Part shown: piece by piece, positions 37,977 to 47,997 of the stretch
Layout: every line of letters starts with the position of its first letter
Numbering within the stretch: the stretch's first letter is position 1
Source of the DNA: Naasia sp.
GTDB taxonomy: Bacteria; Actinomycetota; Actinomycetes; Actinomycetales; Microbacteriaceae
Direction of reading: 5' to 3'
Length of the DNA stretch: 64,000 nucleotides
NCBI RefSeq assembly: GCF_025465545.1
Contig: NZ_JAODMK010000003.1
Location: 89,999-153,998 of the forward strand
The notes under the pieces: model-generated
What the model was told of the DNA's origin: nothing
The model's input: the letters and a program-made list of their open reading frames with translations, nothing else
Databases searched by the model: none
Position numbers and translations under genes: made by a program

Positions 37977-38272
37977 TCAATTCGAGTGGATTCGATAGAG
38001 CAGATCGGGATCGCCGCGATCGGGGCGGAGAATCCGCGGAACGACACGGTTCGAGGCCCCAGTGCGTCCCCTCGCCGAACGCTATCGGCGGGTCAGTCAA
38101 CGGGGGCGCGACACGCACGCCGTCGCATCGCCCCTTTCGGGGGCCAGGATGGATTCCTCGGTCACGAGGAGCTGCCGAGTGGCGACCGTGGGCCTGAGGG
38201 GATTCCATCCCCGCGCAGGCGTGCGCGCCGGGCCACCCTGCGACCGGCTTCTGCATCCCTGAGGGCCGCAAC

Positions 38273-38310
38273 GAGAAAGAGCGCCGCCCGAAGGCGACGC
38301 TCTTTCTCGT
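38273..38310 (-). terminator. Terminator hairpin downstream of tRNA-Ala
   Basis: GAGAAAGAGCGTCGCC-TTCG-GGCGGCGCTCTTTCTC. Confidence 0.65.
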
Positions 38311-38312
38311 TG

Positions 38313-38385
38313 TGGACCTGAGGGGAATCGAACCCCTGACCTCTTCATTGCGAACGAAGCGCGCTACCAACTGCGCCACAGGCCC
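38313..38385 (-). tRNA. tRNA-Ala(CGC)
   Basis: Cloverleaf GGGCCTG...GCGCAGTTGGTAGCGC, anticodon loop TTCGCAA, TTCGATT T-loop, CAGGTCCA. Confidence 0.95.
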
Positions 38386-46865: not shown

Positions 46866-47007
46866 TCGGCGAGTTTCACCAACCCCGGATTGGGGGTGTG
46901 TCGCCTTCTGGTTCGCGAGGGACGTCTCCTATCAAACGAGCACTCCGGCCAGCCACTCCCCCGCAGCGATCCGGCTCTTCGACCCCCACGTTACGATGGG
47001 CTCGCCA

Positions 47008-47079
47008 GCCTCTGTAGCTCAATGGAAGAGCAGTTCCGTCCTAAGGAAACGGTTGGGGGTTCGAGTCCCTCCAGGGGCA
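47008..47079 (+). tRNA. tRNA-Arg(CCT)
   Basis: GCCTCTG/CAGGGGC acceptor stem, anticodon loop GTCCTAA, T-loop TTCGAGT; one G-A mismatch at 27-43. Confidence 0.92.
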
Positions 47080-47157
47080 CATAGTCGGGATGGCCGCCCT
47101 TGGGCGGGCGGCCCGGCTATCTGCATGTGGAGGATCCAGCAGCCTCTCGCGGGGTGG

Positions 47158-47203
47158 GCCCCTGGCGCACGCTTGCGCCAGGGATCGAGTCCCTCCAGGG
47201 GCA
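47158..47203 (+). ncRNA. tRNA-minihelix-like unit 1
   Basis: GCCCCTG | GCGCA-CGCT-TGCGC | CAGGG-ATCGAGT-CCCTC | CAGGGGC | A. Confidence 0.5.
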
Positions 47204-47281
47204 CATCGCTTGATCGGCCGCCTCCTGGCGGGTGATCAAGCGATCTGTCGTTGGAGGATCGAGAAGCCTCTCGCGGGGTGG

Positions 47282-47327
47282 GCCCCTGGCGCATGCTTGC
47301 GCCAGGGTTCGAGTCCCTCCAGGGGCA
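47282..47327 (+). ncRNA. tRNA-minihelix-like unit 2
   Basis: GCCCCTG | GCGCA-TGCT-TGCGC | CAGGG-TTCGAGT-CCCTC | CAGGGGC | A. Confidence 0.5.
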
Positions 47328-47503
47328 CATAGTCGGGATGGCCGCCCTTGGGCGGGCGGCCCGGCTATCTGCAGGTGGAGGATCCAGCAGCCGCTCGCGG
47401 TCATCCTCGCGACGCTCCCCGATCGCCGGCGTGCTCCTCGGAGAGCCGCCTGCCATCGATGCCGCTTCCCCTCGATGCATCGAGACCGATGGCATTGACG
47501 CTT

Positions 47504-47522
47504 CACTTGTTTTTTGCAAGTG
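47504..47522. promoter_or_regulatory. Palindrome CACTTG-N7-CAAGTG, candidate HxlR-family operator
   Basis: CACTTGTTTTTTGCAAGTG just upstream of the VOC-HxlR pair, abutting TTGACG. Confidence 0.5.
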
Positions 47523-47562
47523 TTGACGCTGTCCACATGAGGACCCCACGAAGGAGACCACG

Positions 47563-47997
47563 ATGACCGCGATGTTCGTCAACCTGCCGGTGACCGACCT
47601 GGAGCGCGCGAAGGCGTTCTACACGGCCATCGGGTTCGCCATCAATCCGCTCTTCACCGATCACAACGCCGCCTGCGTCGTCGTCGAGGAGGACCACAGC
47701 TACTTCATGCTCCTGGTGCGCGACTTCTTCCAGACCTTCACCGACCTGCCCATCGGCGACCCGGCGGTGAACCCGTCGGTGTCGACGGCGATCTTCCTCG
47801 ACAGCCGCGAGGCGGTCGACAAGGCTGTCGCCGACGGCATCGCCGCGGGCGGTGGCGAGCCGCGCCCCGCCTCGGACTACGGCTTCATGTACCAGCGCCA
47901 GGTCACCGACCCCGACGGAAATCTCCTCGAGTTCGGCTGGATGGACCCGGCCGCGGCCGCTCAGGGCCCCGAGGCCTTCGCGAGTCAGCAGGCCTGA
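47563..47997 (+). CDS. VOC family protein
   Basis: FVNLPVTDLERAKAFYTAIGF...VTDPDGNLLEFGWMDPAAA. Confidence 0.93.
   Translation: MTAMFVNLPVTDLERAKAFYTAIGFAINPLFTDHNAACVVVEEDHSYFMLLVRDFFQTFTDLPIGDPAVNPSVSTAIFLDSREAVDKAVADGIAAGGGEPRPASDYGFMYQRQVTDPDGNLLEFGWMDPAAAAQGPEAFASQQA

Follow-up and report, generated by a model that had tools for sequence, protein, structure and literature searches.

RtT-like elements behind tRNA-Arg(CCT) and other tRNA genes of Naasia and related Microbacteriaceae

The tandem array behind tRNA-Arg(CCT) in Naasia sp. is on balance best read as a tRNA-linked, RtT-like, transcribed interspersed element that is present in two tandem copies and a stub. The array lies in the 64,000-nucleotide stretch of DNA that was analysed (the window) and has the layout tRNA(R) - T - [R' - C - R - T] - [R' - C - R - T] - R' stub. 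Here R stands for the 3' end of the tRNA, comprising the T-arm and the 3' strand of the acceptor stem, R' is an inverted, diverged copy of R, T is a terminator-like hairpin, and C is a conserved, REP-like core hairpin in the T-loop of the R copy. Sequence comparison establishes the layout, the fit to the local tRNA at 14 tRNA species, R'-R and core pairing with compensatory changes, and the plan shared with the E. coli rtT repeats; the layout and the RtT-like architecture are almost certain.

The initial annotation described a 124-bp tandem repeat of the tRNA-Arg(CCT) 3' end in which only the first copy belongs to an intact tRNA. Both points were confirmed: the tail TCGAGTCCCTCCAGGGGCAC ends at 47080, 47204 and 47328, and apart from tRNA-Arg(CCT) at 47008-47080 ARAGORN calls no tRNA at the array. 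The three 124-nt copies form one repeat family, start at 47057, 47181 and 47305 (spacing 124 and 124), and the other two are 80% and 82% identical to the first. Copy 3 has 98% identity to copy 1 over 96 bp, and the middle copy differs mainly in its 40-nt T hairpin, where both arms changed and pairing was retained. The very divergent internal sequence reported earlier is, in the middle unit, a hairpin that changed in both arms at once. Every unit is a single module of set length, with 82 nt of element and about 42 nt of T hairpin and joint, and this accounts for the constant period. The array contains two full 124-bp units and a stub; its third copy, which consists of no more than tail, hairpin and inverted stub, departs from the repeat around 47400.

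After T, each unit runs 5' to 3' through R', a junction, a short hairpin (P2), the core C, the direct tail and the next T (Table 1). The junction is GAGAAG in element 2 and CAGCAG in element 1, and the 3' strand of P2 matches the tRNA T-arm 5' strand. The core follows the plan TGGGCCC-stem-GGGA and is placed at the T-loop, after which the direct tail copy begins TCGAGT. The fold z-score of T2 together with element 2 (47205-47328) is -6.35. A pattern search found no U-tailed terminator among the T hairpins of the tRNA-Arg(CCT) locus.

Table 1. Positions in the window of the tRNA-Arg(CCT) array and of the tRNA-Ala(CGC) element
Feature	Position	Strand	Basis
tRNA-Arg(CCT); last ~20-24 nt are the repeated tail R	47008..47080	+	ARAGORN; Rfam tRNA 59.3 bits
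T1 hairpin, directly 3' of the tRNA, no U-run	47081..47120	+	fold -27.0 kcal/mol (+), -21.6 (-)
Element 1: R', junction CAGCAG, P2, core, direct R	47123..47204	+	CM R3 86.5 bits, E 9e-19 (its sequence included in the model)
Element 1 core hairpin C (GTGGGCCC...GGGA), inside the T-loop of the R copy	47154..47184	+	
Direct tail copy R of element 1, TCGAGTCCCTCCAGGGGCAC	47185..47204	+	repeat search
T2 hairpin, arms largely different from T1, equal length	47205..47244	+	fold -31.5 (+) vs -26.6 (-)
Element 2	47247..47328	+	CM R3 95.2 bits, E 7e-21 (its sequence included in the model)
Core hairpin C of element 2	47278..47308	+	
Direct tail copy R of element 2	47309..47328	+	repeat search
T3 hairpin, sequence equal to T1	47329..47368	+	
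Third R' (stub), end of the repeat	47371..47400	+	
tRNA-Ala(CGC), host of the second element	38312..38385	-	ARAGORN
T hairpin 3' of tRNA-Ala(CGC)	38268..38311	-	
Single element with tRNA-Ala(CGC) tail	38188..38267	-	CM R1, R3

The single element behind tRNA-Ala(CGC) scored 53.0 bits with covariance model (CM) R1 in the genus search, before it entered any model, and 58.9 bits with R3. Its tail copies are likewise 124 bp apart and its core is a variant, GTGGCCC. The initial annotation, correct on the direct copies, had lacked the inverted tail copies, the conserved core, this minus-strand element and the spread over tRNAs and genera.

Altogether 42 elements were tabulated, from 20 genomes, 10 Microbacteriaceae genera and 14 tRNA species, so that absence from all relatives, considered in the initial annotation, is false. 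At each of the 14 tRNA species R and R' fit the local tRNA. Tail copies are present beyond chance, since a direct copy of the tRNA's own 3' end was found downstream in 31 of 33 core-bearing tRNA contexts against 1 of 37 core-less ones, a contrast internal to the set, all 70 contexts being from loci fetched by element, core or tRNA searches. The lone core-less exception is the variant element at tRNA-Ala(CGC) in the window. A plain inverted copy of R occurs only at some loci (mainly in genome G006), and elsewhere R' was recognised mostly by pairing. At the tRNA-Lys of G006, CTTGTGGGCCCCGTG and CACGGGGCCCACAAG are complementary without a mismatch, including three bases past the tRNA.

Covariance models built from the copies found elements behind many further tRNAs in the genus and in other genera of the family. 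All seven out-of-genus matches of the family search lie at tRNA tails, six directly behind a called tRNA and one behind a tRNA-Met-like tail without an ARAGORN call. A GTDB-wide scan with the short core, which may omit records very near the window's genome, returned 17 stretches; apart from one stray, the 16 others come from Naasia aerilata, Naasia lichenicola and Amnibacterium flavum. The wide searches scored few candidates per genome (15 in the order-level search), and absences, including absence outside the family, are weak evidence. Two out-of-family matches (L210, L213) have no tRNA nearby and lie in coding-like DNA, and the sequence at L227 resembles a segment of an ABC-type ATPase; the three were put down to chance. 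Matches to GGATCGAGAAGC with two mismatches were mostly background.

The core also occurs in a long form with an apical GCGAAGC-type hairpin (L172, L174, L179, L183, L189, L191, L194 and L219-L229, not L227), with the internal-loop variants CCGGUUCC, GCAGUCC and GAGGGGCC. Outside the genus this is the commoner form among the elements found. Genome G240 (L223, ~1330-1600) has an element with a tRNA-Arg(CCT) tail in a 3-kb locus where ARAGORN calls no tRNA.

The folded R'-C-R forms a three-way junction. Its 28 pairs were scored in alignment A1, which has 11 copies from six tRNA species: 91.2% of cells are paired and 43 cells carry double changes, where shuffles gave 13.8+-3.0 and slid partners 5-10. 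In A3 (35 copies) 87.4% of cells are paired and 168 cells are double changes (59+-7 in shuffles, 26-43 slid). Of the alignments, A1 tests this more fairly than A2 and A3, which had been fitted to the model, yet the structure used for A1 was obtained by folding the sequences that it contains. P1 pairs at 8.8 of 10 positions with its own tail versus 6.0 of 10 with the tails of other tRNAs. The P1 and P2 covariation is in part a legacy of the tRNA, whose arms, the source of both strands, were already paired; the core covariation is not inherited in this way. Template-switch correction from arm to arm could also maintain hairpin pairing without selection. A mini-tRNA or mascRNA reading was rejected: the Rfam match is sub-threshold (26.8 vs 42.5 bits), and the acceptor pairing is specific to tRNA-Arg(CCT), other copies pairing R' with the tail. 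HDV-type or other known ribozymes gave no Rfam match at E<=10 in 46900-47600.

G-U pairs count only for the RNA of one strand. The tRNA strand is the more stable in 18 of 18 T hairpins, and among the elements it is favoured in 27 against 6. The mean strand difference of the elements is -6.5 kcal/mol compared with -3.8 in shuffles, that is, beyond composition. G-U outnumbers A-C in P1 (23:12) and P3 (10:5); P1b shows no strand bias (8:9), and the excess in P2 (19:5) is confounded by composition. The copies are related, the covariation and strand counts are not independent tests, and the strand bias is therefore moderate evidence for constraint at the RNA level. Together with the T hairpin retained behind most units it favours such a constraint, which is likely to act on the tRNA strand.

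The rtT repeats belong to the E. coli tyrT operon. They have been known since 1991 and have no settled role, a part in the stringent response having been suggested. The initial annotation drew the parallel to rtT, and it goes deeper than claimed, K-12 rtT sharing the inverted tail copy, the GAGAA junction and the T-loop hairpins. The 178-bp repeats of K-12 contain an inverted 22-nt copy that is 86% complementary to the tRNA-Tyr T-arm region; read in tRNA orientation, the inverted copy GCGGGGAAGGATGAGAAGC is followed by TTCGACCAAGGTTCGA, hairpins and the tail ATCCTTCCCCCACCACC. In NC_000913.3 (L231 1311-1798, -) the rtT repeats show the inverted tRNA-Tyr tail copy and GGATGAGAAGC. The Rfam RtT consensus has P1 between the inverted copy and the tail, plus GGAUGAGAA. 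Likewise, each Microbacteriaceae unit ends with a copy of the upstream tRNA 3' end, and its inverted tail copy pairs with that tail, with GAGAA behind. The exact GGATGAGAAGC occurs in 3 of 35 Microbacteriaceae copies and GGAT(N)GAGAAGC in ten, a match noticed post hoc whose chance level is put by a rough guess at about 1 in 16,000 (seven further bases at a fixed place). GAGAA itself is found in 19 of the 35, among them element 2 of the window; element 1 has CAGCA.

The likeness to RtT (RF00391) thus covers tandem units that follow a tRNA at a constant period and each end in its 3' end; an inverted tail copy pairing as P1, with the GGAUGAGAA junction; a second hairpin with a 3' strand like the tRNA T-arm 5' strand, and more hairpins in the T-loop; and a copy number that varies among strains. 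The differences are also clear. The insertion site is before TCGA of the T-loop in Microbacteriaceae but after TTCGA in rtT, the period is 122-124 rather than 178, and the core sequences are unrelated as far as seen. Unlike rtT, the Microbacteriaceae elements occur at many tRNA species and have a terminator-like hairpin in each unit. The Rfam RtT model, which matches K-12 rtT at 134-138 bits, had no match in 46900-47600 at E<=10, none in nine long-form loci at E<=1 and none above the cut-off in the genus search; model R3 in turn does not find E. coli rtT. Because the Rfam model does not match, the elements are called an RtT-like variant and membership of RtT is not claimed. The two groups have the same plan, and common descent is not claimed.

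Within one genome, cores at different tRNAs have an identity of 0.80; permuting the genome labels gives 0.68+-0.03 (p 0.0005). This similarity within genomes favours spread. The short-core copies found in REP-like palindromes at a distance from tRNAs come mostly from G006. This genome (L074-L096) has about 25-30 short-core copies, most of them in REP-like doublets CTCGACCC-core-GGGGACTCGATACG away from tRNAs, and REPs of a similar type without the core occur nearby. Compared with a GTRG-type tag at the 5' foot, GTGG precedes the tRNA-linked cores and many non-tRNA core copies carry another base. The elements resemble REP/BIME palindromes in being short, dispersed, extragenic palindromes with related copies in many places, and in G006 the core is also found inside the REP-like doublets. 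They differ in being branched, tied to tRNA tails and equipped with a tail copied from the local tRNA. Y1_Tnp (PF01797) was absent from all nine genus genomes (5 of 14 controls were positive), on which ground a RAYT-mobilised REP was rejected, and this sets the elements apart from REP/RAYT systems. BIME cluster members have been likened to rtT in a passage of PMC2965389. CGTC-tagged REPs (PMC3733652) are likewise dispersed palindromes without an assigned transposase; the abstract does not describe them as tRNA-tail elements.

From these comparisons the element appears more probably to be a spreading one, in the main, than a host regulator. Transcripts that read through T would carry R'-C-R, folded as the three-way junction. 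Ending at the T hairpin that follows, they would be RNAs whose tail resembles that of a tRNA, as has been described for rtT. According to sections of PMC4986893, RtT RNA is released from tRNA transcripts and linked to amino-acid limitation. Pairing of R' with its own R copy should spare the tRNA from invasion by R'. The core would spread within a genome, and each newly founded element would take its R, R' and T from the tRNA locus where it arises; the observed order would, speculatively, result if copying had switched to and fro from one hairpin to another. Tandem arrays would then expand and contract through unequal crossover. Unequal crossover, proposed in the initial annotation, is a fair account of copy number but is insufficient for the element itself, because elements are found singly behind many other tRNAs. 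Against the preferred reading stand the Y1_Tnp search, which gave no transposase candidate in the nine genomes, and the T hairpins of the tRNA-Arg(CCT) locus, which have no U-run.

A small RNA that benefits the host is unlikely, though several observations fit it; on this view, RNA processed from the read-through transcript would use its tRNA-like tail, or R', to act on the tRNA itself or on enzymes that handle tRNA. The unpaired motifs GAGAA, GUGGGCCC and GGGAUC are conserved across genera and tRNAs, the strand bias and the retained T hairpins agree with it, and RtT RNAs are visible on Northern blots in Actinobacillus (PMC4986893). The distribution is patchy, however. The genome G001 (taken as Naasia aerilata NBRC 108725; complete, one contig of 3,391,135 bp) has a two-unit array at the syntenic tRNA-Arg(CCT) with the same neighbour genes, and in the genus search 7 of 9 genomes had none at this tRNA. 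No single tRNA consistently carries the element across the genomes looked at, and degenerate copies are common.

A neutral by-product of hairpin-primed template switching at tRNA terminators with palindrome correction, without selection or a mobile element, is improbable. It would account for R-T-R' being one continuous palindrome at some loci (at L183 with 28-nt arms, 93% complementary), and R-T-R'-C-R alternation is expected from copying to and fro between two hairpins. It leaves unexplained why unrelated tRNAs have the core and GAGAA in common, why E. coli has GAGAA too, and why the RNA strand is favoured. Scars of an integrase or phage using the tRNA 3' end as attachment site are very improbable. 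Integration at tRNA genes typically leaves direct copies of the tRNA 3' end, as seen here, but the spacing is fixed, there is no cargo, and an inverted copy and a core are unexpected of att sites. Searches of phage and plasmid collections gave no match and viral contigs only chance matches, on which ground a phage or plasmid origin was rejected. An assembly artefact of the repeat, a concern raised by the initial annotation for what is a 53-contig draft (G000), is scarcely credible because the complete Naasia aerilata chromosome has a two-unit array of the same layout at the syntenic tRNA, and the units differ from one another.

The rtT-like build of the elements, found behind at least 14 tRNAs across the family, suggests that rtT, little understood in E. 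coli, is one member of a far broader class. With another, distant group that follows the rtT plan at 14 tRNA species, comparative evidence for the structure of rtT becomes available, and the comparison brings out the conserved parts: R' with its own R copy, GAGAA and the hairpin in the T-loop. Many natural pairs of presence and absence are now usable for tests of function. If they do spread, the elements exemplify repeats that re-create a part of their own sequence out of the host tRNA. It is possible, if doubtful, that rtT and the Microbacteriaceae elements form one ancient or widely moved class of structured RNA behind bacterial tRNA genes, building its own tail from the host tRNA, spreading from tRNA to tRNA and copying the local tail in both directions. 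As for novelty, the initial annotation knew of no such array in an actinobacterium, and no earlier description was found in the open-licence literature.

Cores were also seen in relation to tRNA sequences of other kinds. At L025 (~1440-1550) and L017 (~1760-1850), extra 5' parts of tRNA-Val(TAC) and tRNA-Arg(TCT), respectively, are interrupted by the core at the T-arm, and these interrupted parts adjoin an intact copy of the tRNA. In L047 (1607-1694, -) the GGCCTATGGCGCACGCTTG of tRNA-Ser(GGA) resembles the short core GGCCCATGGCGCACGCTTG at 18 of 19 positions.
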